Part shown: positions 476 to 33,074 of the stretch, one piece after another
How the letters are laid out: every line of letters begins with the position of its first letter
Numbering within the stretch: position 1 is the stretch's first letter
Source: Candidatus Methanomethylophilaceae archaeon
GTDB taxonomy: Archaea; Thermoplasmatota; Thermoplasmata; Methanomassiliicoccales; Methanomethylophilaceae
Assembly (NCBI GenBank): GCA_017524805.1
Contig: JAFXUX010000025.1
Location: 1-35,952 of the forward strand
DNA length: 35,952 nucleotides
Direction of reading: 5' to 3'
The notes under the pieces: generated by a model
Told to the model about the DNA's origin: nothing
The model's database searches: none
The model's input: the letters and a program-made list of their open reading frames with translations, nothing else
Translations under genes and position numbers: made by a program

Positions 476-1528
476 GTGAGAATCGTCCAATTCGATTCGG
501 GCGGTCTCAAATGCCCGATCCCAGATACGCCGAGAATCAAAGGGATGGCAGGCAGATGGGGGCCCACGGAACTTGGGGATTCCGACGTCACAATCAAAGC
601 TATCTATAGGCCGGCCAGAATCCGTTTCCTCCAATGCGATGGCTCGGAATCCGAAGCGAATGCAGGCGGCCCGTATCCAATACCTATGCCGATCCGCGGA
701 TTCGAGGGGAAATGGGAGCCATTCGCGGTAGGATACAAAGACGTAACAGTGCGTGCTATTTACAGAGGCCCAAGCCACACAATAGTTTTGTTTGCCGATG
801 GTAAGCGCTTCGCGACGGTGGGATGCCCTTCCGGAGAGTTTCCCAAGCTTCCCCAGCCACCCAGAAAGAAGGGATTCAAAGCAAGATGGCCGGCCTTCGA
901 TCCGACCCCTCGCAACATCAGGATTGAGGCCGTTTACGAGCCTATCTCTATCGTATGCCACACCGGCATAGGAAAAAGCATCGCAATAAAGTATGACCAA
1001 AATGGCTTCAGCCTTCCGCCAGTCCCCAAGAAACCCGGTTTCACAGGAAAATGGGAGGATTATTATCTCGGGACGTCAGACATCGACCTGAAACCGGTCT
1101 ATATAAAAGCGGCTTCCAGCGTATCGGCACCGCAAGAATCGGCTGGAATAATCAGGGAGAACGTAAGGAAGGCGTTGGATGATCTCTATTTCGTATCCAA
1201 AATGTGGAGCTCCATTGAAGAGGAGCCGGCCGAAAAGGCGCCGAATCCCACATATGATATAAATTTGACGCACGATACGGAAGAAGAAACGGGTTGGGCC
1301 AGCTTCGCGGGAAAGCTGTCCCCGTTCCAGAAGGAATACCTGGCATCGCTGGCGGAAGGCTCCGATCCCAGCGCTGTGCTCAAAAAGCACGGGCAAATGA
1401 GGATGGCCGCGGAAGCCGAGCTGAACGCCCTGGCGGAATCGCTGCTGGGAGATCCGATAATAGACGGGGGAGAATTGGACCCGGACTATATCGGCGAGAT
1501 TCTGGAGGTTGTGAAGGATGGGAACTAA
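476..1528 (+). CDS. Beta-repeat protein with C-terminal TerB_C-like domain
   Basis: The protein has four units of about 55-60 residues, each ending in a pattern like GF.G.W......D(I/V).(L/I).(A/P)(I/V)Y. These resemble the InlB B-repeat / Listeria-Bacteroides beta-grasp repeats. A roughly 70-residue helical C-terminal segment follows, starting LSPFQKEYLASLAEG and containing LLGDPIIDGG.LDPDYI, which resembles TerB_C. The frame is open from ATG 377, but GTG 476 has AAAGGAG at 464-470, 5 nt upstream, and starts exactly at the first repeat. ATG 377 and ATG 428 have no comparable site. A TATA-like ATAAATAA near 319-326 fits a start near 345. The gene overlaps the next one by 11 bases, so they are translated together. 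TerB_C proteins are known to neighbour DUF2791 ATPases, which supports the assignment. Substrate and role are unknown. Confidence 0.7.
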   Translation: MRIVQFDSGGLKCPIPDTPRIKGMAGRWGPTELGDSDVTIKAIYRPARIRFLQCDGSESEANAGGPYPIPMPIRGFEGKWEPFAVGYKDVTVRAIYRGPSHTIVLFADGKRFATVGCPSGEFPKLPQPPRKKGFKARWPAFDPTPRNIRIEAVYEPISIVCHTGIGKSIAIKYDQNGFSLPPVPKKPGFTGKWEDYYLGTSDIDLKPVYIKAASSVSAPQESAGIIRENVRKALDDLYFVSKMWSSIEEEPAEKAPNPTYDINLTHDTEEETGWASFAGKLSPFQKEYLASLAEGSDPSAVLKKHGQMRMAAEAELNALAESLLGDPIIDGGELDPDYIGEILEVVKDGN

Positions 1529-2777
1529 AGTAGGGAAAAAATCAGCGACAACGATCGTCAAGGCCCTTTCATCCGGGGTGGTGCCGCCCAGAGGCGCCGA
1601 ACAGATTGCCGTCGGAAGGCGCAACGAAATATGCGCTTTTGACAGAGACCTTGAAGACGCCGCGGAAGGCATCGGCGCATTCAGATTCATAATAGGGGAA
1701 TACGGCTCCGGGAAGACCTTCTTGTCCCAGCTGATACGCACCCACTCGGCCGATATGGGCTTCATCGTCATGAACGCCGATCTGACCCCGTCCAGCAGAC
1801 TGAAGGGAAGCAACGGCGAAGGGATCATGCTCTATCGCAAGCTGATATCCAGCGCGACAATGAAAGGCATGATGGACGGAGGGGCGATAGAAGCTCTGAT
1901 TCAGACCTGGCTGTCCGGCGTCGAAACCAGAGCCTCGGAAAGGACCGGGATGCCTGTCCAAAATCTCCAGATAAGGGATGTGGAAACCCAGATCGGCTTG
2001 GAAACAGAGAAAATATCGATGCCGTTCTCCGCCGATTTCTTTAGAGTAATAATAAAGTATTATGTACGCAGCCGGGCGGATCGCGATGTGACGGATCAGC
2101 TCCGCTGGCTGGGCGGAGAATGCAATTCTCTCAAGGAATCCAAGGACAAGCTTGACATCGGATCCTGCGTCAAAGATGAGAACTGGTACATGTTCATCCG
2201 CCTATGGTCGGAATTCGCGGTGATGGCCGGATTCAAAGGCCTGGTTTTGATAATGGATCAGGCAGATGTGCTCTTGAAAACGGCGAATTCGGCCAGGAAC
2301 GCCAATTATGAAATGATATTGGCGATGTACAACGATATCGCACAGGGGTATTCGCGCCATATGGCGGCATATATGTGCGGAACGCCCGAATTCCTCGAGA
2401 ATCCGGTCACTGGGCTGTATAGCTATGGGGCGCTGAGAACCAGACTGGAGGAGAGCCGCTTCGAAAAGGGTCTGGACATCAATTCGGGGCCGGTGGTGAG
2501 GACAAAGCCGCTGACCGTCGAAGAACAGGAGGCGCTGCTTCTGAGAATACTGGAGCTGCATCAGATAGCGAACGAATATGAATCTGAGATCACACCGGAA
2601 ATGGTGGAGAGGTATATGCTGTCCGTCAGATCGAATTCTGAGTCGGTGAGCCCGAGAATCCTTTCCAGAGATTTCATCGCGCTGCTGAACGTCTTGCGCG
2701 CCTATCCCGACAAAAATTTCGATGGCCTCTTGGAAGGAAGATCCGTAGAGACGGACACCGGGCAAGAATTCATCTAA
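1518..2777 (+). CDS. BrxD/DUF2791-like P-loop ATPase
   Basis: This 419-residue protein has Walker A GEYGSGKT at residues 60-67. A Walker B-like strand LVLIMDQAD lies near 242-250, followed by CGTPEFLENP (about 287-296) and GLYSYGALRTRL (about 299-310). That series is typical of the BREX ATP-binding family DUF2791 (BrxD). Those relatives usually have Asp-Glu at Walker B, whereas here it is Asp247-Gln248, so hydrolysis may be slowed. The start has GGAGGT about 8 nt upstream and lies inside the previous gene. In bacteria such ATPases often travel with TerB-domain proteins and a helicase in defence-like or DNA-processing loci. No helicase, PglX or phosphatase partner follows here, so this is a two-gene or truncated version. 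The role is inferred from family and context only. Confidence 0.8.
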   Translation: MGTKVGKKSATTIVKALSSGVVPPRGAEQIAVGRRNEICAFDRDLEDAAEGIGAFRFIIGEYGSGKTFLSQLIRTHSADMGFIVMNADLTPSSRLKGSNGEGIMLYRKLISSATMKGMMDGGAIEALIQTWLSGVETRASERTGMPVQNLQIRDVETQIGLETEKISMPFSADFFRVIIKYYVRSRADRDVTDQLRWLGGECNSLKESKDKLDIGSCVKDENWYMFIRLWSEFAVMAGFKGLVLIMDQADVLLKTANSARNANYEMILAMYNDIAQGYSRHMAAYMCGTPEFLENPVTGLYSYGALRTRLEESRFEKGLDINSGPVVRTKPLTVEEQEALLLRILELHQIANEYESEITPEMVERYMLSVRSNSESVSPRILSRDFIALLNVLRAYPDKNFDGLLEGRSVETDTGQEFI

Positions 2778-3575: not shown

Positions 3576-4214
3576 ATGGCTAATGAAGAAATTATTGCGA
3601 ATCTTAGAAAGTCGGTAGAAACCTGGGACTTCAAGCTGGCCCAGTCTGCAACCCAAGAAGCGATCGACGCTGGAATGTCGGTCGGAGAGATCATCGGAGA
3701 AGGACTCGGAAAGGGAATGGAAACCATCGGAATCAGGTTCGACAAGGCGGAGATCTACCTCCCCCAGGTCGTCGCAGCTTCCAAGGCAATGGAGGCCGCA
3801 CTGAACGTCCTCAAGCCCCTCATGGAATCCGGATCCGGATCGCTCAAGGGAACCGTTGTTATGGGAACTGTCGAGGGAGACATCCACGAAATCGGAAAGA
3901 ACGTTTGCTGCGCTATGCTCAGAGGCGCGGGCTACAACGTCATCGACCTTGGACCTGATGTGTCCGCTATGGACTTCATGGACGCCGCAGAGGAGAACGA
4001 CGCTCAGGTTTGCGGAGGATCTGCCCTCATGACCACCACCCTCGAAGCTCAGAGAGAGCTCGTTGAGACCATCAAGGAAATGGACGCCCCCTACAAGGCA
4101 ATATTCGGAGGAGCACCCTGCAGCCAGGAATGGTGCGACCAGATAGGTGCCGACGGATATTCCGAAACTGCGAATGAAATAATTGGGCTCGTTGACAGAC
4201 TTACTGGAAACTGA
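3576..4214 (+). CDS. mtmC: Monomethylamine corrinoid protein MtmC
   Basis: This 212-residue protein carries methyl groups on a bound corrinoid between MtmB and the coenzyme M methyltransferase. It has the usual two-part build: an N-terminal helical cap (about residues 1-90), then a Rossmann-type B12 domain. The cobalt-binding motif is GDIHEIG with His104 as the lower axial ligand, followed by GGSALMTTT (about 147-155) and GGAP (about 178-181), which contact the nucleotide tail. The ribosome binding site is AGGGAGG 8 nt before the ATG. It is called MtmC rather than MtbC or MttC because mtmB follows 16 bases later in the same operon. The cytoplasmic location and role follow from the family. Confidence 0.93.
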   Translation: MANEEIIANLRKSVETWDFKLAQSATQEAIDAGMSVGEIIGEGLGKGMETIGIRFDKAEIYLPQVVAASKAMEAALNVLKPLMESGSGSLKGTVVMGTVEGDIHEIGKNVCCAMLRGAGYNVIDLGPDVSAMDFMDAAEENDAQVCGGSALMTTTLEAQRELVETIKEMDAPYKAIFGGAPCSQEWCDQIGADGYSETANEIIGLVDRLTGN

Positions 4215-4230
4215 TTCGAGGTGTGAAAAA

Positions 4231-5646
4231 ATGGCAGCAACAAGATTCCTCACCGTTACCGACGTTTACGAGAGATTCATCAAGGGAAAGAAGGTCCCCG
4301 AAGCAGATTGGGATTACAAGATCATTCCCGGAAACGCTACGGCTCTGAAAGAGAAGTACAACATCAAAATCGACACCTTCATTCCCGAAGACAAAGACCA
4401 GAAAGACGCTCTGTTCCAGGCAGGACTGGAGATGCTCGTCGAGACTGGTTACTACTGTCAGGATCTCGGCCGCGTCATGAAAGTGACGGAAGAAGAGGTC
4501 TTCGAAGGCATCAAGAGGGCTCCCAAGAAGCTCATACTCGGTGAGGGAAGGGACATCGCCAGGTTCTACCCCAGGCGCGGAAACTCACCTGTCAAACCGA
4601 TCATTCAGGGAGGACCTACCGGATCCCCTCTGTCCGAGGACTACTTCGTGAAGATCATGCAGTCCTACGCCCAGGAGGGTATCGTAGATGACTTGGTCAA
4701 CGGCGTCATGACTACCGTCGAAGGAAAACCCGCCAAGAGCAAGACCCCTTGGGAAATCCGTGCGACCATGCAAGAACTGAGAGCCACCAAAGAGGCAAGG
4801 ACCAGAGCTCAGAGACCTGGACTCGGCGTCTAGGGACCTGAGACGCCTCTGTCCGAGGCCGCTAGGCTGGTCGCGGACTGTCCTTCCGCAGGGCACAGGA
4901 TCACCGATGCCCACGAATGCTCCCAGCTGAATGAGCTCAAAATGGATATGACCGGGCTTAACATGCTCGCAGGATGGACCGTCTCCGGAGACACCATCAT
5001 GGTCGAGCAGATGCCTATCTTCGGCGGATATACCGGCGGAGTCGAAGAGACCGCGATCTGCGATGTCGCAACCACGCTCGCATCTTTCGCGCTGTTCTCC
5101 GGGAACTTCCACCTGGACGGCCCTATCCACATCAGGTGGGGAACGACCATGGCCAAAGAGACCTTGCAGGTCGCAGGATGGGCATGCGCCGCTGTCGACG
5201 CCAACACAGACCTCCTGCTTGCCAACCAATACTACCCGATAGCAGGACCCTGCACGGAGATGTGTCTCCTCGAGACTGCCGCCCAGGCCATCAACGACAC
5301 CGCCTCCGGAAGAGAGCTCCTCTCCGGATCTGCAGCAGCAAAAGGTGTCGTCCAAGACAAGACCACCGGAATGGAAGCCAGGATGATGGGTAACGCCGCA
5401 GCAGCCGCAGCCGGAATGAAAGTCTCTGAGGTCAACGAAATCCTCAGCAAGCTTGTTCCGCTCTACGAAGCCCACTACACCGATGCCCCAGCCGGAAAGA
5501 CCTTCCAGGAGTGCTACGACGTCACCACCGTAAGGCCCACCAAGGAGTACCTTGAGGTCTACGACAAAGCCGCCGCAACCCTTGAGGGACTTGGGCTTGA
5601 CCTCAGCAGATCCAACTGCTCTGGAATAAGGATCTGCAAAAACTGA
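4231..5646 (+). CDS. mtmB: Monomethylamine methyltransferase MtmB with in-frame amber (pyrrolysine)
   Basis: MtmB moves the methyl group of monomethylamine to the Co(I) corrinoid of MtmC. The frame is interrupted only by TAG at 4831-4833, codon 201, within a segment reading RPGLGV-TAG-GPETPLS. This is the conserved pyrrolysine context of MtmB. Readthrough gives 471 residues, close to the usual family length, and the reading continues in the same frame to a TGA stop. Conserved blocks on both sides include QGGPTGSP, EQMPIFGGYTGG, HLDGPIHIRWG and GPCTEMCLLE. The start ATG has GAGGTG about 7 nt upstream. A gene finder using the standard code would split this into two pieces (ending at 4833, restarting near 4942). 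It ends the mtmCB operon. Confidence 0.95.
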
Positions 5647-7126: not shown

Positions 7127-7197
7127 GGAGGGCGCTCCGGCGAGCAAACGGGTCTCTAAAACCTGTAAGCGGGGTTCGACCCCCCGGCCTTTCGCCA
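7127..7197 (+). tRNA. pylT: tRNA-Pyl (CUA anticodon), CCA encoded
   Basis: The fold can be drawn by hand. Acceptor strand GGAGGGC (7127-7133) pairs with GCCTTTC (7187-7193). A 4-bp D stem GCTC/GAGC closes a 4-nt loop with no base between acceptor and D stem. The anticodon stem is 6 bp (A48 and T66 of the 7100s close CGGGT/ACCTG). The loop is CTCTAAA with CTA at 7156-7158, the variable loop is only 3 nt, and T stem CGGGG/CCCCG closes TTCGACC. Discriminator G7194 is followed by an encoded CCA. The long anticodon stem, tiny D loop and short variable loop are the known oddities of tRNA-Pyl; the missing junction base fits Methanomassiliicoccales forms. It reads UAG in mtmB, mtbB and mttB. Confidence 0.97.
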
Positions 7198-14398: not shown

Positions 14399-15802
14399 AT
14401 GACTGAGTACTACACAAGAATGGGAGACGGCCGCAGGGTCACCATGACCAAAGAGCAAATCATGACTGACATCCAAGCCGGGTCCGCTGACGCAGCCGAT
14501 ATGGCAAGTATCCCTGCGCTGGATGCCAACGACATGGAGCACATGTGCGAGATCATCATGGATCAGTGCAGGGTCGTTGGAGTAGAACCTGGACACGAAG
14601 TCGTCATGACCTACGATATCGGTCAGCTTGACTTCACTGGAGACAATGGGAACTCCGGAAACGGCGTCGACATGGGAAGGCTGGAAGCTGCTCTCCTGCA
14701 CGAGAGGGCACTCGGAGCAGATACCTTCGAACTGGCCCACTCCGACTACTCAATCAAACCTGTAAAACCTGTGATTTCCATGGAAATGCAGACCATGGAA
14801 GAGATCCAGCAGGAAATCATCGCCCCCTACTTCTACGGTGCGATGCCCAACATGGGACTTTACTACGCTCCCGATGGACCTTACGGAAACCCCGCCGACC
14901 TCATGAGGGAATTCAAGATCGAAGAGTCCATGGCTTCCTCCGAAGCCGCTGCGGAGCACCTCGCCAGAGACATCGAATTCGTCACCACCAGGCTTCAGGC
15001 CGCTGGTTCCGATGGATTCAACTTCGACACCACCGGTTCCGCCGGTGACGCAGACTTCTGCGGAACTCTGAACGGAGTCAAGATCCTCAGGGAGAAATGC
15101 CCCGAGGCCTACATCAACGTCGGTGCCGCTGGAGAGTCTGTCATGGGAATCCACGGAATGATGGAGTTCGATGGCCAGATTGCCGCAGGAATGTACCCCC
15201 ACCAGCAGGCAAAACTGATCGCCAAAGCCGGAGCCAACGTCTTCGGAGCTGTGTGCAACACCAACACCTCCAGATCCCTCGCTTGGAACCTCGGAAGGGC
15301 CGTCACCTTCATCAAGAAAGCCGTCGAAGACTCCCCCATACCCGTCCACGTGGACATGGGAATGGGTGTCGGAGGAATCCCCATGTTTGAGACCCCTCCG
15401 CTCGATGCCGTTGCCAGATGCAACAAAGCAATGGTCGAGATCGCCAAAGTCGATGGAGTTTAGGTCGGAGTCGGAGACCCCATGGGTATGGATATCCCCC
15501 ACCTCGTCGCTTCCGGAATGGGAGGGATCAGGTCCGCCGGTGACCTCGTCGCCAGGATGATGTACACCAAGAGCATGAAACTCGATGATTGCAAAGAGTA
15601 TGTCGCCAAGAAGCTCGGCGTCACTCCGATGGATCTCGGAGACGAATGCATCATGAGAGACCTCCGCGAAGAGCTCAAGCTCGGAAGCGTCACTGGAATA
15701 CCCGGAGCCCCCCGTGGAATCGCCGCTAAGATGAACATCGAGAGCCTTCTCGACATCAAGATCAACAGCTGCGAGAAATTCCGCGAAAAGCTCAAAAGAT
15801 GA
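14399..15802 (+). CDS. mtbB: Dimethylamine methyltransferase MtbB with in-frame amber (pyrrolysine)
   Basis: MtbB demethylates dimethylamine and methylates MtbC. The frame holds one TAG at 15461-15463, codon 355, in the conserved setting [18 protein letters not shown]. Readthrough gives 467 residues to a TGA stop, the expected family size. Conserved blocks include [43 protein letters not shown], and after the [12 protein letters not shown]-like [29 protein letters not shown] precedes the ATG. Under the standard code this appears as two fragments (14399-15463 and about 15482-15802). Confidence 0.95.
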
Positions 15803-15811
15803 ACTCCGAAC

Positions 15812-15829
15812 GAGGGGATTCGTCCCCTC
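15812..15829 (+). promoter_or_regulatory. UUCG-loop hairpin between mtbB and mttB
   Basis: GAGGGGA-TTCG-TCCCCTC is a perfect 7-bp stem with a TTCG tetraloop, 10 nt after the mtbB stop. No T run follows, so it is more likely an RNA stability or processing element than a full terminator. Confidence 0.5.
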
Positions 15830-15863
15830 AATCGGATGCATTGGACAATAACAAACAAAAGTA

Positions 15864-15877
15864 TTTGTTTAAACAAA
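15864..15877. promoter_or_regulatory. 14-bp perfect palindrome upstream of mttB
   Basis: TTTGTTTAAACAAA lies 65 nt before the mttB start in an AT-rich gap and is flanked by further CAAAC repeats. It could be an operator, or part of a TATA region for an internal mttBC promoter. Confidence 0.4.
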
Positions 15878-15942
15878 CAGATTACTCATCCAAACCGATT
15901 ATGGCCCTCAATCTATTTGGGCCAAGACTAGGAGGAACAAAA

Positions 15943-17427
15943 ATGAAAGCAGTTCAGTACCCTGGAAAAATCAAAGCGGCCGGATTGAAACTCACCATGT
16001 TCACTCAGGACGACCTTGAGTCCATCGACAAAGCCACCAGGGACGTTCTCTGGAACTACGGAGTCCAGGTTTCCGACGACGAAGCCAGGCACATCTTCGA
16101 GGACAACGGTTGCATCGTGGACTACCAGACCAACATGGTCAGGATCCCCGACTTCCTGCTCAACAGGGCTCTCGCCAGCGCTCCCAAGACCTTCTACCTC
16201 TACGGAAGAGACGACGAGCACACCGTCGAGCAGACCTGGAAAGGACGCGTCCACTTCACCAACTTCGGAACCGGAATCCAGATGTGCGACTATCTCGGCG
16301 ACAACAAATACGAGACCCGCGACTCCAACGACGCGGACCTCGCCAAGACCGCCATCCTGTGCGACTGGGCAGAGGGAATCAGCTACTTCTCCCTCTCAGT
16401 TTCCGCAAGGGACTGGGCAGGAGTCGGAGCCGAAGACGTCCACGAGCTGTACACCTCGATCGCCAACACCGTGAAGCACTTCCATCACATCGATCCCGTG
16501 GCCGACCACGTCAAATACTACTGGGAGATCCTCAAAGCGTATTACGGAGGAGACGAGAAGAAAGCCCGCGACAGGCCTCTCATGTCCATGCTCGTGTGCC
16601 CCACCTCCCCTCTAGAGCTCAGCTACAACGCATGCCAGGTCATCATCCAGGGTGCCAGATACGGAATCCCCGTGAACGTCCTGTCCATGGCCATGGCCGG
16701 AGCGTCTTCGTCCATCCACCTTGCGGGAACCCTCGTCACCCACAACGCCGAGATTCTTTCCGGTATCATCCTCGCTGAGCTGGCGAAACCCGGTGCGGCC
16801 GTCTTCTACGGATCTTCCACCACCTGTTTCGACCTCATGCATGGAACCGCCCCCGTCGGAGCCCCCGAACTCGGAATGATCTCCGCTGGTGTGGCCAAAC
16901 TCGGACAGTACTACGGACTGCCCGTGTTCGTCGCCGGAAACTAGACCGACGCCAAAGTCCCCGACTCTCAGGCCGCCCACGAGAAGACCATCACCTCGTT
17001 CCTGCCCCACATGGCCGGTGCCAACTCCATCTACGGAAGCGGAATGCTCGAGCTCGGACAGACTTTCTCCCTTGAGCAGCTCGTCATAGACAACGACATC
17101 ATCAACATGGAGAGGAGAGCCCTCGAGGGAATCCCCGTCACCGATGAGACCCTTGCCGTCGACGTCATCAAGGAAGTCGGAGTCGGAAACGACTTCATCG
17201 GACACCCCACCACCATGGAGAACATGGAGATGCCTTCCAACCCCCTCGTCTTCAACAGAGACATGCTCGGTGACTGGAAGTCCCAGGGATCCAAATCCTG
17301 CGTGGAAGTCGCCCACGAAGTTGTTCTGGACGTCATGAAGAACCACATCGTCCCCAAGATCGACCCTGAAATCGACGCGAAGATCAGGGCTATCGTCAAG
17401 GAAGCAGACGACTCAATGAAATTCTGA
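15943..17427 (+). CDS. mttB: Trimethylamine methyltransferase MttB with in-frame amber (pyrrolysine)
   Basis: MttB moves a methyl group from trimethylamine to MttC. One TAG at 16942-16944, codon 334, lies in [21 protein letters not shown], the known pyrrolysine context of true trimethylamine MttB. Non-Pyl relatives such as the glycine betaine enzyme MtgB lack it. Readthrough gives 494 residues, the usual size. The frame is open back to 15799, overlapping the mtbB stop, but those 48 residues carry no family pattern. ATG 15943 has GGAGGA about 6 nt upstream, so it is chosen. The gene is followed after 36 bases by mttC. Confidence 0.95.
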
Positions 17428-22876: not shown

Positions 22877-22908
22877 GGGGAGGGGAAAATCCCCCGCCCC
22901 TCATTTTT
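22877..22908. terminator. Bidirectional terminator between convergent genes
   Basis: GGGGAGGGG (22877-22885) pairs with CCCCGCCCC (22892-22900) with one mismatch, followed by TCATTTTT on the plus strand and ATTATTTT on the minus strand. It serves the SMR pair and the chelatase operon. Confidence 0.7.
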
Positions 22909-24859
22909 GGATGCGCTGCTTGGCAGTGCGGACCAGATTGATCTCTTCGTGTGTGACGACTTTGAGATCGTCCAAGGTATAGTACGTGGCTCTGAGAGCG
23001 TCGGCGAACTCTTTGGCATGATGGACGGTGTCATACCTTTTCTCCGAATCGATGACGATCCACTTCACGCCGGGGATGTTCATCCTGCGGGCGATGCCCA
23101 ATGCCTCCTCTATGGGATCGGTGGTCTTGTCATCAGGATCCAAGCATATATTTGCGCCCCCATCGGTCACCAGAACGACGTAGCAATCGTCATCGGGACG
23201 CTTTTTCGTGTACATGGACATATAATCGTTGAGGTACTGAAGAGCCGCCGACATCGGCGTCCTCTTTCCGATAGCCAATTCGTCCAGCAGCTTGTAGATG
23301 GTCTCGACCTCTCTGGAGGGCTGCATCAGAATCTGGATCGCGCTCTCGTTGAATGTCATGAACCCTACGCGATCCTTCTTCACATAATGCTGCTTCAGGA
23401 GAGACAATATCGCCCCTTTGACTGCCACCATCCTGTTCCTGATAATGAGCGACCCGCTGGTATCGACGGCGAACAGGAAGGTGGAGGAGGACCTCGTCTC
23501 CCTGATCTTCTCCCTCATATCCTGTTTCTCGATGATGACGGCCAAATCGGTGTCCTTCTCGCTGTGGCGCTTGATCTGATACGGAGCCGCCGCGCGGACC
23601 GTCGCATCGAATGCCAGATCGGGATTCTTCTCTTCTGTCATACGGGAGCCGACATATCTGCCCGAACGGGTGGCGGTCCTTTTCATGACCCTTTTCCCTT
23701 TCGTGCTGGATACCCCGCGGGCCTTTGCCGCGCCTTCCTGCTCGAAGAGGTCTATGGTCTCGAAGGTCTCCCCGATCTTGGTGATGATGTCTTCTGCCTC
23801 GCTGCCTTTGAACTTATGCGTATCGTCGGCGACGGCGACCGGATCCGCCTCGTAAGGAGTGTCATCTTCCTCCTGATCGGAGCCCACCCCATGATTGGGA
23901 TCCCTGGTCGGATGGACCGCTTTGAAAATCGCCCTGGATTCGGTGTTGAACCCGACGCTGGAATGGACTACCTTCTCCATCTTGTCGACGCGTCTTCCCT
24001 TGACGACCTTGCGCCTGTGGGAGAGGCACAGGATCGTGGCTTCTTCCAGATCGTCGTCGGAGATATTGGACCTTCCATCGAGAGCAGCCAGAGCTATGGC
24101 GACGTTGGCCGTGGAAAGATCTCCTCTGGCGCCGTCTATGCCCATATTCCCGCTGACGGTGGCTATTGTGCGCGCGATATTCTCTGGGACTACCGCGCCT
24201 TCAGTAATTTTCCTCGCCTCTGCTATCTTCTTGGCGATGGCCCTTTCCTCCTCGACATACATGGAGGCGAACGCATCGGGATCCTCGTCGAAAGCCAGGC
24301 TGCGCCTGAGTATCTCCGTCCTGCCGGCTTCATCATCGGGATAATCGGCATCGACGCAGATATCGAAATGGTCCAGGATCACAGGGCTGAGATACGAATC
24401 ATGGATGTTCATCGTGGCCACGAGGATCGTATCCACTTCGTACATCGTGGATATGTTCTCCCTCTCGATCTTAACCCTTCCTGAAAGGACGGCTTCCATC
24501 ACGCCGTTGGTCATCCTTTGCTCGAACAGATTCACGTCATCCATGTAGAGGATGTTGCCGTCCGCGCGCTGGAGAAGGCCCTCTTGGAGCTCGATTTTCC
24601 CCTCCTTGATAGCGGATTCCAGATCCAGGCATCCGAACAGCTGCTCATCGGTGACGTTCAGAGGGACATTGACTATCGTCTTTCCGGATATCTCTCCGAG
24701 CGAGCGCGCGACCAGGGTCTTTCCCGTCCCCGAAGCGCCTTTGATGAGTACCGTTTTGATCTTAGGGTTGGCTATAGCGCACATCAGCGCCTTTTTGACC
24801 TGCTCCATCCCATATACGGCGGGGAAAGGATAGTGTGCGACCGTCATATGCCCAGGCAT
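22901..24859 (-). CDS. Mg/Co-chelatase family D subunit (AAA+ plus VWA)
   Basis: The 652-residue protein has an N-terminal AAA+ ATPase (Walker A GASGTGKT, Walker B ILYMDDVNLFEQ), an acidic linker, and a C-terminal von Willebrand A domain with the MIDAS motif DTSGS and VLVTDGGAN. This is the build of ChlD/BchD, which with the I subunit drives metal insertion by a large chelatase subunit. In methanogens the pair is usually linked to CobN-type cobaltochelatase for corrinoids, which would fit a corrinoid-dependent lifestyle; CobN is not in this window. AAGGAG lies 8 nt before ATG 24859, so that start is preferred over ATG 24847. The gene overlaps the I gene by 16 bases. Confidence 0.87.
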   Translation of the reverse strand: MPGHMTVAHYPFPAVYGMEQVKKALMCAIANPKIKTVLIKGASGTGKTLVARSLGEISGKTIVNVPLNVTDEQLFGCLDLESAIKEGKIELQEGLLQRADGNILYMDDVNLFEQRMTNGVMEAVLSGRVKIERENISTMYEVDTILVATMNIHDSYLSPVILDHFDICVDADYPDDEAGRTEILRRSLAFDEDPDAFASMYVEEERAIAKKIAEARKITEGAVVPENIARTIATVSGNMGIDGARGDLSTANVAIALAALDGRSNISDDDLEEATILCLSHRRKVVKGRRVDKMEKVVHSSVGFNTESRAIFKAVHPTRDPNHGVGSDQEEDDTPYEADPVAVADDTHKFKGSEAEDIITKIGETFETIDLFEQEGAAKARGVSSTKGKRVMKRTATRSGRYVGSRMTEEKNPDLAFDATVRAAAPYQIKRHSEKDTDLAVIIEKQDMREKIRETRSSSTFLFAVDTSGSLIIRNRMVAVKGAILSLLKQHYVKKDRVGFMTFNESAIQILMQPSREVETIYKLLDELAIGKRTPMSAALQYLNDYMSMYTKKRPDDDCYVVLVTDGGANICLDPDDKTTDPIEEALGIARRMNIPGVKWIVIDSEKRYDTVHHAKEFADALRATYYTLDDLKVVTHEEINLVRTAKQRIQK

Positions 24860-25890
24860 ATGTCCAGCTCCTTCATGTCGAAGGTGACCTCCTCGAACGC
24901 GCGCTTCTTGAGACGGTGCCCGAGGACGAGGGGAGCGACGGTGCGAAGGTCTTCTTTGGTGACTTCCGCCCTGCCCTCCAATGCCGCATTGGCTTTGGAT
25001 GCCCTCATCATGGTGATGTCAGCCCTGTGGCCTTCCATCTTGAAATGGATGCAGACGTGAACGATATCGTGGAGTATCTTATCGTTGAGGACGACTTTGG
25101 GAAGAAGAGCGCGGGCGTCCTCGATCTTCTTCCTCAGGGCGTCGGTCTCGCTCTGGAACGAGGCGAGGTATCCCTCGGGATCGGCGTCGAATTGCATCCT
25201 GCGCCTGATGACTTCCATCCTGGTGCTCACATCCTTCTCGCCTTCGACATCGACACAAAGACCGAATCTGTCCAGAAGCTGAGGCCTAAGGCTTCCCTCC
25301 TCGGGGTTCATGCTTCCCACAAGAACGAATTTGGCGGGGTGCGAGAATGAAACACCTTCCCTTTCGATGTAGTTGACGCCCATCGCAGCGGAATCCAGCA
25401 GAAGGTCGATGATGTGGTCGTCGAGAAGATTGACCTCATCCACGTAGAGGATGTTTCCGTTGGCCTGCGCCAGGACTCCCGGTTCGAATTTCTTCTGTCC
25501 GGTTTTGAGGACGTGCTCCAGATCGAGAGTACCGGATACGCGGTCCTCGGTAGCGCTTAGCGGGAGCTCCACAACGGATGTGGGAACTTCCTCGGTTTTC
25601 AGCGTGTTGGATGCGAGTTTCTCGCGGCAATCGGCGCACATCCTTTTTGGGAATCTGGGGTCGCAATGGTAAGGGCACCCTACCACAGACTGCCTCGGAG
25701 GAAGGATCTGCGCCAAAGATCTGACGGAAGTTGATTTGGCGGTCCCTTTCTCCCCTTTGATGAGAACCCCTCCGATTGCAGGGTCCACTATATTCAGCAG
25801 AAGCCCTTTCTTCATCTTGTCCTGCCCTACTACGCGAACGAATGGGAATATGATAGTCTCGTTAGCCATTGGATCAACATCCGTGCCCAT
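24844..25890 (-). CDS. Mg/Co-chelatase family I subunit (AAA+)
   Basis: The 348-residue AAA+ ATPase has IFPFVRVVGQDKMKKGLLLN at the start, Walker A GEKGTAKST, a cysteine-rich insert (CPYHCDPRFP...CADC), Walker B ILYVDEVNLLDD, and VGSMNPEEGSLRPQLLDRFG (sensor region), as in ChlI/BchI. The four-cysteine insert could bind zinc. ATG 25890 and ATG 25869 are both possible; the family match begins just after the second. TATA-like TTTAATTATAG (about 25907-25917 on the minus strand) lies upstream. It is translated together with the D gene. Confidence 0.87.
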   Translation of the reverse strand: MGTDVDPMANETIIFPFVRVVGQDKMKKGLLLNIVDPAIGGVLIKGEKGTAKSTSVRSLAQILPPRQSVVGCPYHCDPRFPKRMCADCREKLASNTLKTEEVPTSVVELPLSATEDRVSGTLDLEHVLKTGQKKFEPGVLAQANGNILYVDEVNLLDDHIIDLLLDSAAMGVNYIEREGVSFSHPAKFVLVGSMNPEEGSLRPQLLDRFGLCVDVEGEKDVSTRMEVIRRRMQFDADPEGYLASFQSETDALRKKIEDARALLPKVVLNDKILHDIVHVCIHFKMEGHRADITMMRASKANAALEGRAEVTKEDLRTVAPLVLGHRLKKRAFEEVTFDMKELDICLGI

Positions 25891-25997: not shown

Positions 25998-26744
25998 TCA
26001 TTGGATTTCGTCTTCGTCGTCCATCTGAAGCGAACGCATTATGGACTCGACCATATCTTTTAGATCGTTGATGTCTCCCCGTACCATGGATATCTGGGAC
26101 CTCAAACCGCGGACGTCGGCCTCCAGGGATTCTATCCTTTCAACGTATCCATCATTGACGGCCTTCTGCTGGGGGACTTCCAGATTCTTGATCTTCATTA
26201 TGGTCTTCTCGCGCTGGATGCGAAGGTCGCGGGATTCCTTCTCCAGTTTGTTTTTTCTGTCGAAATCGTCTGCAATCGCAGCCTCGACGATGGCTTCGTC
26301 CAACTCGGAAATGCGGACCTGCATTCTCTTCAGGTCTTCCTTTAAGACTGCAGGATCGTCCGAATCGGATGGCCCATAGTTCTCCTGCGATGATGGCTGG
26401 GGCTTGGAGCTGCCCATCCTGGACGTCGCCTCATCCTCTATCCTCATCCTGTAATCCCTTCCCACAGGCTCGAATGACGGCCCAACGGGATTGACAGTGG
26501 CATTGAGATCCCTCGAGACCAAAGGCACTTCAAGCCCGCATTCGACGAAGGAATCCTCGATCTCCTTCCTTCTGGCAGTGTATTGGTTCACCAGCGCATC
26601 TATCTTCTCGATGCATTCTTTGTTCTCTCTCTTCTGAGCTTCATCCATCGGTTTGATCTTTTCCAGATCCGTTCTCTATGCGCTCAGCCTCTCAGTTTCT
26701 TTCGCGAGGAAACGGATTTCCCTGTCATATTTGCTTCCTGGCAT
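25998..26744 (-). CDS. Coiled-coil protein with in-frame amber codon, candidate pyrrolysine protein
   Basis: Reading from ATG 26744 gives 248 codons with one TAG at codon 23 (26678-26676). Upstream residues MPGSKYDREIRFLAKETER and LSA meet the TAG, and RTDLEKIKPM follows. Leu13, Leu20 and Leu27 keep a perfect seven-residue spacing across it, so both sides look like one coiled coil. A TATA-like GTTAAATACAAT (about 26772-26783) predicts a start near 26753, only about 10 nt before ATG 26744. The alternative start ATG 26648 (216 residues) has a poor ribosome binding site and would leave a 105-nt leader. The remainder is charged, with a Ser/Pro-rich linker (about residues 95-125) and two more coiled-coil stretches, ending DDEDEIQ. 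Function is unknown. The TAG could instead be a recent nonsense mutation with restart at 26648. Confidence 0.7.
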
Positions 26745-26771
26745 TACAATCGGCACCCATATTATTGTATT

Positions 26772-26783
26772 TAACACACAGTT
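26772..26783 (-). promoter_or_regulatory. TATA-like box of the coiled-coil gene
   Basis: GTTAAATACAAT on the minus strand lies about 30 nt before ATG 26744. It supports the longer, amber-containing reading over the short one. Confidence 0.5.
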
Positions 26784-26846: not shown

Positions 26847-26891
26847 GGGACTTCGTGACGATAGTTGGTGAAACAAACGAAACAAAGTCCC
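26847..26891 (+). promoter_or_regulatory. Inverted repeat enclosing the transposase start
   Basis: GGGACTT (26847-26853) pairs with AAGTCCC (26885-26891), placing the TTG start at 26865 inside the loop. Many insertion sequences limit translation by folding over the start of read-through transcripts; this looks like such a structure. Confidence 0.4.
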
Positions 26892-27938
26892 GGTATCAGC
26901 GATGCATTAGCTTGTCAAATACTTAACGAAAGGTTCTCAGAATATATGGGGTCGGCATGGGACTTCAAACTCATCGGAGGCAACGACATCCCGCTTGTAA
27001 CCTTGCGTTACAACGTCGCGGTCGTGGCAGTCGAGGACGGGTGGACATACAAGGAGATACGCAAGAAGTTCAATGTCTCCGACGGCTTCATCAGGAAGTG
27101 GAGCAGGCTTTATGCCGCCCACAAGTCATACGCAGCCAGCCATCCGTCTGCGAACACTCAGATCAAGACCAGATTCCAATCCGTCTCCAACCGTCCCAAG
27201 AGTTGCGAGTCCCCCGTGAGGGACGAGCACAGGAGCCAGATTTTGAAAAGGCAGTCTAAATACGGCTTCGAAGGTGCGCTGCGCATCAAGCATGCGCTGA
27301 ATCTGCCGCTGTCTCCCACAACCATAACGAAGATTCTCAGGGAGGAGGGACGCATCGGAGCGCCGAAGAAGCGCCACACCAACCTGGCGAGGGGCAGCTA
27401 CGAGCGTCCACTCCCGAATGACCTGTGGCACACGGATTTCAAGCAATGGAACTTCGAATGGGGCCGCGTCGAATCCATCTGGATCGTGGATGACAGATCC
27501 AGGTTCATCACGGGGTTCCACATAGACGACCACTCGTCGGCGGACATTGTGATCGACATGTTCGAGAAGGCCATGGCCATGTTCGGGAGGCCCAGGCAGG
27601 TCATAACCGACCACGGGTCGGAGTTCTATTCCATGCTCGGTGGCCCTGGCCGGTCCAAATTCGACAGGTGGTGCGCGAAGAACGGCATAAAGCACATCAA
27701 ATCCCGCGTGAGGCACCCCCAGACCAACGGAAAGATGGAGCGCACCCACAGATCGGCCCTTGAGGAGACTCCCTATTTCGGCGACATGAAGTCCTTGGCC
27801 GAAGCCAGGGAGGTTTTCTCGAGGTGGATAGAGTACCGCAACACGGACTGCCCCCATTCCGCCCTGGGTTACGGGCTCACAGTCTACGAGTACCTGTCGT
27901 CCAACTACATTTACAAGAACCTGGCGGACATGGCCTGA
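26865..27938 (+). CDS. DDE integrase-core transposase (IS481/IS3-like)
   Basis: The 357-residue protein has an N-terminal helix-turn-helix (GWTYKEIRKKFNVSDGFIRKW), an HTH_21-like linker, and an RNase H-fold integrase core. The catalytic residues appear as Asp in DLWHTDFKQW, Asp in VITDHGSEF, and Glu in PQTNGKMERTHR. The C-terminal WIEYRNTDCPHSALGYG is typical of IS3/IS481 enzymes. The start is TTG 26865 (or the next codon GTG) with no strong ribosome binding site. The frame is intact, so the element may still be active. Function is cut-and-paste or copy-type movement of the element. Confidence 0.88.
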   Translation: MVKQTKQSPGISDALACQILNERFSEYMGSAWDFKLIGGNDIPLVTLRYNVAVVAVEDGWTYKEIRKKFNVSDGFIRKWSRLYAAHKSYAASHPSANTQIKTRFQSVSNRPKSCESPVRDEHRSQILKRQSKYGFEGALRIKHALNLPLSPTTITKILREEGRIGAPKKRHTNLARGSYERPLPNDLWHTDFKQWNFEWGRVESIWIVDDRSRFITGFHIDDHSSADIVIDMFEKAMAMFGRPRQVITDHGSEFYSMLGGPGRSKFDRWCAKNGIKHIKSRVRHPQTNGKMERTHRSALEETPYFGDMKSLAEAREVFSRWIEYRNTDCPHSALGYGLTVYEYLSSNYIYKNLADMA

Positions 27939-28467: not shown

Positions 28468-29985
28468 TTGAGCAATAACGTCGAGGTCTACTCGGACGGA
28501 AAATCGGGATCGGAATCGTCCATGACGAATTCTCAGTCCGACAGCGGCCTCGTAAAGTCCATCGATTGGAAGCAGGGAGTGATCATCGCCATGGGCGTTC
28601 CCATTCTCATCCTTCCAGGTATCTACGACATAGCAGGTACCGCATGGGGACTTAGCATAATGATCTGGACCGTCTCGGTCTTGCAAGGGTTCTGCCAGAA
28701 TTTCGCCATCGGAGAGATGGCGGCCGCTCTGGAAGCGCCTGGAATAGGCGGGTGCGCGCAGAAGGTATTCACAAGCCCCAACCCTAAAAAATTCGATCTG
28801 GGAAAGTTCGCAGGCGCGTTCACAGCATGGGCCTATTGGTTCACGTGGACGCCTGTCATTCCGATTTTCACTTGCACAGCATGCGATTACATAACCAAAT
28901 ACATGGAAATTGGATTGGGAATATCGCTTCCTTTCGATATTCTTTATATGCAACTCGCTCTCGGCGTCGTTATCTTCAGCATAATCGTGTTCGTCGGGTC
29001 CAAGGGATTGTCTGGAGGAGCCAAACTCGGCCTTGTCCTCGCTCTGATAGCTATCGTGCCCATGCTTGTGGTCATCGCCATACCGTTCACCGGATTCTCC
29101 ACTACCGGCCATGCGTTCGATTTCGGCATGATAGTCGATAACCTCACCCCGACGGGATGGGATTGGTCTGCCGGCGACTTCCTGATGATCTTCGGAATGT
29201 TTGCCTATGCCCAGTGGTGCGCTTGCGCATGGGAATCTACCGCAACCTACGGATCGGAATACAAGAACCCCGGAAGCGATCTGCCTAAGGCGATGATCTC
29301 AGCGGGTCTGATCTGTCTCGCCATGTATTTCATCGTGCCCTTCTGCGTTTACGGAATGCTCACCCCCGAGCAGATCGATGAGTGGGGCATCGCGACGCTT
29401 TACCCCATTGCCCTGTCCGACTTCGGAGAGATAGGCCTCATTGTCGCTTTGGTGCTGCTGGTAGCCGGAATGGTCATGCTGATCCAGACCGCTTTCCTCG
29501 GATCTTCCAGGACACTGTACTTCATGGGCCACGAAGGGAACATGCCCGGATTCTTCACCAAGACCAATAAGAACGGCGCGCCTATCGCTGCGATGCTGTT
29601 CCAGTTCGCGATGGGCATAATATTCATCCTGATCATCCATTTCGGATCCGTAGGAATGATTCTTGCGGCATCCTCCTTCGGATTCTGCTTGGCGCTCGGG
29701 ATGGGTATGCTGGCATTCGTCGTGTACAGAAGATCGGAGAGATTCAAGGATCTGCCCAGACCATGGACCGCCCCCCGCGGATGGTTCTATGTGGCATGCT
29801 TCCTGATGATCTATCAGTTCTTCATACTGATACCTTGCCTCGCCTATTGGTGCATCAACGGAGGAATCGAAAACGGAACGTTCTCGGTCATAATAGGGGC
29901 GATCATCTTGCTTCTGTACATTCCGGTCTGGTTCGTTCTTCAGAGCAGGAACGCTAAAATGAAGGGTGGAGCAAAGAATAGTTAA
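28468..29985 (+). CDS. APC-superfamily permease 1
   Basis: The 505-residue protein has about twelve hydrophobic helices and the APC-type helix-1 region WKQGVIIAMGVPILILPGIYD (an unwound glycine/proline stretch). It is clearly paralogous to the gene at 31560 (shared MARSV/LVKS-WKQG, WTVSVLQGF.QN, GEM, CAWE..A.YG.EYK.PG.D.PKA). The start is TTG with GGGAGG 8 nt upstream. A Ser/Asp-rich N-terminal tail of about 30 residues precedes helix 1. APC permeases take up amino acids and amines; a methylamine role (as proposed for MtmP) fits the setting but is not shown. A GU-containing hairpin (30009-30027) with T5 follows. Confidence 0.83.
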   Translation: MSNNVEVYSDGKSGSESSMTNSQSDSGLVKSIDWKQGVIIAMGVPILILPGIYDIAGTAWGLSIMIWTVSVLQGFCQNFAIGEMAAALEAPGIGGCAQKVFTSPNPKKFDLGKFAGAFTAWAYWFTWTPVIPIFTCTACDYITKYMEIGLGISLPFDILYMQLALGVVIFSIIVFVGSKGLSGGAKLGLVLALIAIVPMLVVIAIPFTGFSTTGHAFDFGMIVDNLTPTGWDWSAGDFLMIFGMFAYAQWCACAWESTATYGSEYKNPGSDLPKAMISAGLICLAMYFIVPFCVYGMLTPEQIDEWGIATLYPIALSDFGEIGLIVALVLLVAGMVMLIQTAFLGSSRTLYFMGHEGNMPGFFTKTNKNGAPIAAMLFQFAMGIIFILIIHFGSVGMILAASSFGFCLALGMGMLAFVVYRRSERFKDLPRPWTAPRGWFYVACFLMIYQFFILIPCLAYWCINGGIENGTFSVIIGAIILLLYIPVWFVLQSRNAKMKGGAKNS

Positions 29986-31559: not shown

Positions 31560-33074
31560 ATGTCAGATGATAGCGCGTCGATGGCTAGATCTGTGAGCTG
31601 GAAACAGGGGATGTTCATTGCCCTAGGCGTTCCGCTCCTGATTTTGCCATCGTTAGGCGACGTATCTTCACTCGTATGGGGATGTTGCATATTCGTATGG
31701 ACTGTGTCAGTACTGCAGGGATTCGTCCAGAATCTCGCTTATGGCGAAATGGTGACGATTCTGCCTAATGCTACTGGGCTCCCTGGCTGCGCTCAGGCCG
31801 TATTCAAATCAGAAAACAAAACAAACGGCGTAGACAAAGGCAAGCTATTGGGAGCCTTCAGCGCTTGGTGCTATTGGTTCGCTTGGTGCCCCGTGGTCGT
31901 CATTTTCACGATGATGATCGGAGACTACCTCGTCCAAATGTTCGATCTCGCTTTCGAGGGATGGGTGGCAGTCGGATTTTACATGGTCGTCGGGATCGTA
32001 ATCGTTTCCCTTATGCTAGTGTTGGGATTGCGCGGCCTCGAAGGCGGAGCCAAAGTCAGCACAATTCTGGCATTGCTTTCGCTCATACCTATAGTCGTCA
32101 TTCTTCTCGGAGCTCTCGCCAAGGGAATGTTCAGCTTCGATGTCATCACGACGGAATGGACCCGCCCCGGATTCAGCTGGTCCACCCAAGATGTCGTGCT
32201 CATCCTCGGATGCTTCGCGCTCGGACAATGGAGCGCCTGCGCTTGGGAGACGGCGGCCGTTTACGGACCGGAATACAAAGAACCCGGAAAGGATGTGCCT
32301 AAAGCGCTCTTCGGATGCGGAATCATCTGTCTCATAATGTACTTCTTCGTTTCCACTGTCGTATACGGATCCCTCGGACACGACGCAATCGTGGATGCGG
32401 GCACCGCTACGCTCAAGCCCATCGCAGGATTCGTCTTCGGAGACTTGGGATCGTACATCGCCTTGTTCTTCCTTATAGTCGCGATGGTTCTGATCATTCA
32501 GACCGGATTCCTTGGATCCTCGAGATCCCTCAACTCAATAGCGGAAGAAGGGAACCTCCCCGCATGGTTCGCCGTCAAGAACAAACACGGCATGCCCATA
32601 AATGCGATGATTTTCGTGAGCGCCTTCAACCTTGTGCTTCTCGTCGTGCTTGAGGCCAGCTCGTGGGTGTTCGCGCTTTCCACCACTTCCATGACAGTTC
32701 TCACGGCTTCCGCCATCGGATACTGCATCGCAAACGGGATCGCTCTCGCCGCATACGTGAAGACCAAGAGAGACCCCAGATTCGCAAGCATAGAGAGGCC
32801 TTTCAAAGCACCCAGAGGCTGGACCGGCGTCATCTCGGCGATGGTCGTAGTTCAGTTCTGCGTATGGCTCCCGAGCCTCGTCTATTGGAGCTACTACCTG
32901 AGCTCCGATGGCGGATTGGAAACTGGGATAACGGCATATATAGCCATAATCATAGCCGCAGTCATACTATCGGCTTATGTGCCCATCTGGTACTTGGTCC
33001 AGAAGAGGAATTCTAATTCCGAAGCCGTCGATCAGAGGCAGATAAGCCGCCTGGGAAACGAGGAAGGACACTGA
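31560..33074 (+). CDS. APC-superfamily permease 2
   Basis: The 504-residue paralog of permease 1 has about twelve helices, WKQGMFIALGVPLLILPSLGD in helix 1, CAWETAAVYGPEYKEPGKD mid-protein, and QTGFLGSSRSLNSIAEEGN in the second half. GGAGG precedes the ATG by about 9 nt. The two permeases differ mainly in loops, which suggests related but distinct substrates, such as different methylamines or amino acids. A strong terminator follows. Regulation by a MarR-type protein is suggested by the upstream sites. Confidence 0.83.
   Translation: MSDDSASMARSVSWKQGMFIALGVPLLILPSLGDVSSLVWGCCIFVWTVSVLQGFVQNLAYGEMVTILPNATGLPGCAQAVFKSENKTNGVDKGKLLGAFSAWCYWFAWCPVVVIFTMMIGDYLVQMFDLAFEGWVAVGFYMVVGIVIVSLMLVLGLRGLEGGAKVSTILALLSLIPIVVILLGALAKGMFSFDVITTEWTRPGFSWSTQDVVLILGCFALGQWSACAWETAAVYGPEYKEPGKDVPKALFGCGIICLIMYFFVSTVVYGSLGHDAIVDAGTATLKPIAGFVFGDLGSYIALFFLIVAMVLIIQTGFLGSSRSLNSIAEEGNLPAWFAVKNKHGMPINAMIFVSAFNLVLLVVLEASSWVFALSTTSMTVLTASAIGYCIANGIALAAYVKTKRDPRFASIERPFKAPRGWTGVISAMVVVQFCVWLPSLVYWSYYLSSDGGLETGITAYIAIIIAAVILSAYVPIWYLVQKRNSNSEAVDQRQISRLGNEEGH

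Follow-up and report, generated by a model that had tools for sequence, protein, structure and literature searches.

The window, by which we mean the whole stretch of 35,952 nucleotides analysed here, contains a minus-strand gene for a predicted coiled-coil protein (hereafter the coil gene) with an amber codon near its start, along with genes for the synthesis and decoding of pyrrolysine (Pyl) and for methylamine methyltransferases, as listed below.

4183-5646, plus strand: mtmB with an in-frame TAG, a positive control for Pyl decoding
7127-7197, plus strand: pylT, tRNA-Pyl with a CTA anticodon
7204-11077, plus strand: pylS, pylB, pylC and pylD
14399-17427, plus strand: mtbB (14399-15802) and mttB (15799-17427), with one in-frame TAG each
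22901-24859, minus strand: ChlD-like AAA and VWA protein, overlapping the ChlI-like gene
24844-25890, minus strand: ChlI-like AAA ATPase of the cobaltochelatase/Mg-chelatase I type, the next gene downstream of the coil gene
25998-26744, minus strand: coil gene, 248 residues when TAG is read as Pyl at residue 23
26613-26615, minus strand: Cys44 codon (TGC), covarying with the TAG in the homolog comparison
26676-26678, minus strand: in-frame TAG at codon 23, the putative Pyl site conserved in the homolog comparison
26761-26774, minus strand: TATA-like stretch TTAAATACAATAAT, 17-30 nt upstream of the ATG, weak and judged by eye

The coil gene opens at ATG 26744, meets its lone in-frame TAG at codon 23 and continues through 225 sense codons to a TGA at 26000-25998, as the initial annotation had it, and Leu13, Leu20 and Leu27 do keep a seven-residue spacing across the TAG. 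The proposed TATA-like stretch is likewise present upstream of the ATG, and clade-B relatives of the gene carry clearer TATA-like boxes, TTCTATATATAG. The pylTSBCD set that had been ascribed to this genome is complete, with pylT, pylS, pylB, pylC and pylD all inside the window, and because these genes are accompanied by TAG-bearing mtmB, mtbB and mttB, the window can be regarded as a methylamine/Pyl island. Comparison of the coil protein with Pfam produced no match over the cut-off, and hence no MtmB, MtbB (Dimeth_Pyl) or MttB domain; a search against PDB sequences produced weak coiled-coil matches only (best E 0.0015), and the protein was placed in no named coiled-coil family.

The ChlI/ChlD pair is cobaltochelatase-like according to NCBIfam, with a match below the family cut-off. 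Directly upstream of the coil gene, in divergent orientation, lies an integrase-core (IS-type) gene (26865-27938, plus strand), which the clade-A relatives examined lack at this position. A hydrolase gene beside the coil gene is flanked by two permease genes (28468-29985 and 31560-33074, plus strand), which match trimethylamine N-oxide permease below the cut-off; clade A keeps this arrangement. Elsewhere in the window, the protein encoded at 1518-2777 (plus strand) has a sub-cut-off match to the BREX BrxD ATP-binding protein.

The use of TAG in the genus was assessed in the complete genome of the rumen isolate ISO4-G1 (G007), where TAG terminates only 39 of 1297 high-scoring ORFs, and in about 31 of those the coding sequence runs on past it. 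Because so few ORFs end in TAG, and most of those code onward, TAG appears to be a sense codon almost everywhere in this genome. Dozens of genes with an in-frame TAG were returned by the screen. Nine methyltransferase genes and the gene of a 5,216-residue peptide synthase were among them, and both are also found in the published analysis of ISO4-G1 (PMC4824259), where non-methyltransferase genes with TAG number 25. The sense reading of TAG is in line with the figures reported for related methanogens, namely 46 TAG genes in ISO4-H5 (PMC5011839) and, in Ca. M. alvus, 1.6% TAG stops and 16 non-methyltransferase Pyl proteins (PMC4153887). The TAG of the coil gene is very probably read as pyrrolysine, and we infer the incorporation of Pyl into the protein from the conservation of the codon and of the protein on both sides of it.

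Of the 30 other genomes of the genus that were searched, 25 contain a full or partial match to the window protein; no match was found in the other genera searched. The long relatives form three groups, namely A (G000, G026, G027, G001 and G018), B (G009, G003, G007, G030, G019, G025, G012 and G013) and C, with the members of A and B being 38-83% identical to the window protein. Codon 23 is TAG in 11 of the 13 full-length A/B homologs (5/5 in A, 6/8 in B); G012 and G013 of group B have GAG in its place, and group C has sense codons at this site, mostly for Gln or Glu. A family of short paralogs, about 140 residues long and with six members, carries TAG at the aligned codon in 6/6, and in both the long and the short family the TAG lies at codon 21-23. 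The homolog alignment at position 23, which had been recommended as a check, thus favours Pyl, and the presence of this residue in a coiled-coil protein that is not a methyltransferase, as the initial annotation suggested, is backed by the conservation of the TAG. In an order-wide search, the short family was found in the host's genus only; its PDB fold search returned no match at E <= 0.001, and searches of viral contigs with both families yielded no relatives. The short paralog may be one of the unnamed hypothetical proteins in the published lists of Pyl proteins, perhaps AGI85290.1 (148 aa).

Gene order differs between the groups. The long genes of group A adjoin the ChlI-ChlD pair, as do those short genes of group B that could be examined (G007 and G019), and the long genes of group B adjoin ramA and mtmB, and also the pyl genes if the contig extends that far. 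Pyl-bearing coil genes are always located in methylamine/Pyl or ChlI/ChlD neighbourhoods; six group C loci were examined, with no pyl, methyltransferase, RamA or ChlI/ChlD genes nearby. This gene order suggests, as the most likely setting, that the coil protein is an accessory factor serving the ChlI/ChlD (cobaltochelatase-like) pair and the corrinoid/methylamine machinery. A joint tree places the short family with clade A (98/96) and joins a third paralog, which lacks Pyl and is present in clade-B genomes, to group C. The gene order agrees with this tree, so the Pyl site is probably older than the duplication of these lineages. Downstream of this site, identity between clades A and B at fourfold-degenerate positions is just about 19-44%; synonymous sites are thus saturated between the two clades, and a TAG without effect would be unlikely to last in 11 genomes. 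Pyl in the coil protein is probably kept by selection.

A cysteine occupies the position of window residue 44 in every Pyl protein of the family, long or short. Where TAG has given way to GAG (Glu), in G012 and G013, Cys44 (TGC/TGT) is replaced by Arg (CGC, CGT). These two losses are independent on a tree built without columns 23 and 44, which pairs G012 with the TAG-bearing G003 (83/92) and G013 with the TAG-bearing G025 (100/99). Among 56 columns that are invariant in ten aligned Pyl-bearing long proteins, two are changed in G012 and three in G013, and columns 23 and 44 are the only ones changed in both; column 44 was picked as the partner after the fact, and the tree offers three independent Pyl/Cys contrasts, too few for significance in a sign test. 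Because the Pyl codon covaries with Cys44, Pyl being paired with Cys and, twice independently, Glu with Arg, residue 23 itself appears to matter, and the double exchange of Pyl-Cys for Glu-Arg is what one expects of two touching residues. Structure prediction with AlphaFold2 gives a hairpin for the window protein, with helices at residues 5-29 and 35-68 (pLDDT about 82-92 over residues 11-60), and helices at 13-28 and 34-61 for the short protein. Pyl lies late in the first predicted helix and Cys in the second, on neighbouring antiparallel helices, with the two sites offset by about three residues in the predicted model, where the 23-44 distance is estimated from the helix boundaries. Covariation and the predicted fold taken together, Pyl23 and Cys44 probably make contact across the facing helices.

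Two other accounts of the early TAG concern the way in which the gene is expressed. According to the main alternative of the initial annotation, the TAG is a recent nonsense mutation and translation restarts at Met33, where an ATG does open a 216-codon frame in the window that would yield a 216-residue product. This is highly improbable, given that the same TAG is common to 11 genomes, that Met33 is missing already from the nearest relative (G026), and that every long homolog, those of the TAG-less groups included, keeps an N-terminus of the type M-x-x-(S/T)-K-Y-(D/E)-R-E-(I/L)-R-F ahead of the site. Homologs therefore do not start at the second Met, and the coil gene lacks the marks of a pseudogene, its stop being shared by orthologs and the N-terminus before the stop being conserved. 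It was also suggested that the TAG ties the level of the protein to the Pyl supply, such that full-length product would depend on charged tRNA-Pyl, and thus on growth on methylamine, with the residue itself being unimportant. The position of the codon, at 21-23 in both families and near pyl and methylamine genes, is compatible with such a gate; however, a gate gives no reason for a partner at Cys44 or for the replacement of this Cys by Arg when TAG becomes Glu, and the nearby methyltransferases have their TAG far inside the gene. We consider it improbable as the main reason for conservation, since the covariation with Cys44 indicates that the residue matters; an effect of supply may arise incidentally from the early TAG.

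The strongest alternative is neutral: the TAG would have arisen in the family ancestor and Pyl would have been tolerated as a long lysine-like residue, as has been proposed for most non-methyltransferase Pyl proteins. Stable incidental TAGs have been argued for in Ca. M. alvus by Borrel et al. (PMC4153887), and the general use of TAG as a sense codon, with so many in-frame TAG genes in ISO4-G1, fits this account. In a search for conserved TAG sites, 22 TAG windows of ISO4-G1, joined as two chimeric queries, were run against 31 genomes; among the matches listed, relatives carry a sense codon at most of the sites, as drift predicts. The coil TAG, by contrast, is the only tested non-methyltransferase TAG among these matches that is common to clades A and B. 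Furthermore, it has outlasted the saturation of synonymous sites in the 11 genomes and persists in a paralog family, and both of its losses were accompanied by the same change at Cys44. Neutral retention is accordingly unlikely, if less so than the other two accounts, and a Pyl that is selected together with its partner cysteine is the reading we prefer.

A few TAG sites besides that of the coil gene are likewise shared among clade-B genomes. A further widely conserved TAG site was found in a gene of ISO4-G1 (1123787-1125550, minus strand); judging by sequence alone, we take its product to be a phosphate symporter of the NptA type that includes a PhoU domain. The motif (F/L)C(N/D/Q)NEOEL, in which O denotes Pyl, is shared by nine genomes. 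A Cys stands four residues before the site in 9/9 proteins with TAG and in 0/10 with a sense codon, a pattern that amounts to about one event, with 7 of 74 columns separating the two sets as cleanly. In ISO4-G1, Cys at this offset accompanies 4 of 35 non-methyltransferase TAG sites, the NptA site included (p 0.003, or about 0.05 when 16 offsets are allowed for), and a hand count of TAG sites in other loci, sorted by eye, gave 3/11 (p 0.0008). An over-representation of Cys four residues before in-frame TAG codons is suggestive only. In clade B, the family of another ISO4-G1 gene (778778-779536, plus strand) has TAG at two places. One, RCxAMO, occurs in G007, G013 and G009, and the Cys four residues ahead of its TAG is there whether or not the protein has Pyl; the other, (S/G)P(H/Q)xxOLP, occurs in G025, G013, G009, G019 and G030. 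A TAG that seemed to be shared in DNA ligase was rejected, as it lay outside the matched coding part; when the coding window was used by itself, the TAG was present in ISO4-G1 only.

Our preferred reading is that the coil family consists of helical-hairpin/coiled-coil proteins in which TAG encodes Pyl and a Pyl23-Cys44 contact is under selection, and that it is likely to put Pyl to a conserved, functional use beyond the methylamine methyltransferases. In Pyl the imine carbon is electrophilic. Pyl23, in the first helix, would touch Cys44 in the second, and the thiol of Cys44, facing Pyl, could add reversibly to the imine carbon and so lock the hairpin; methylamine, ammonia, other free amines or a redox change may then open the bond. 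In the methyltransferases, this carbon is presumably where substrate amines add, sulfite addition has been seen in crystals, and nucleophile addition to the imine is established for MtmB and MttB (PMC9842639). That the coil protein forms a covalent Pyl-Cys bond or switch is a tentative proposal, and it is just as speculative that a reversible imine-thiol staple or switch operates in at least two unrelated helical proteins of gut methanogens, the coil family and the NptA/PhoU symporter.

To our knowledge, Pyl has an essential chemical role in three methylamine methyltransferase families only, and other Pyl proteins are mostly seen as chance products of a code in which TAG is read. A coil family in which Pyl is kept with a partner Cys makes the recruitment of Pyl as a working amino acid elsewhere directly testable. 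If the pair does react, it would provide an oxygen-independent protein cross-link and possibly an amine sensor, with uses in protein engineering, given that E. coli can already be made to encode Pyl. If the staple is real, Pyl would be a general reactive amino acid of these archaea, beyond the methyltransferases.

Several known systems invite comparison. Kivenson et al. reportedly described in Science in 2025 an archaeal code in which all TAG codons specify Pyl; like our reading of ISO4-G1, this is a genome-wide assignment, but it treats the code as a whole. MtmB, MtbB and MttB resemble the coil gene in having a TAG at a fixed site, in the same genomic island, with Pyl under selection; they have no relation to the coil protein in sequence or fold, and their Pyl lies in the active site of a TIM barrel, whereas that of the coil protein would lie in a predicted helical hairpin beside a partner Cys. 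The incidental Pyl proteins (PMC4153887, Table 7; PMC5011839; PMC4824259) are also products of non-methyltransferase genes with an in-frame TAG in the same archaeal order, but those lists report neither site conservation nor a partner residue, whereas the coil site has been kept in different species and in paralogs, and it covaries with a Cys. The nearest described link is the lysine-cysteine NOS bridge, in which a lysine-type side chain near a Cys can act as a reversible covalent switch, as Pyl would in the coil protein (PMC8964421); it needs oxidation and an oxygen atom, which the imine-thiol adduct proposed here would not. Set beside these systems, the sequence comparisons point to a coil protein of gut and rumen methanogens whose Pyl site has been gained and lost together with Cys44, and to a role for Pyl outside the methyltransferases.
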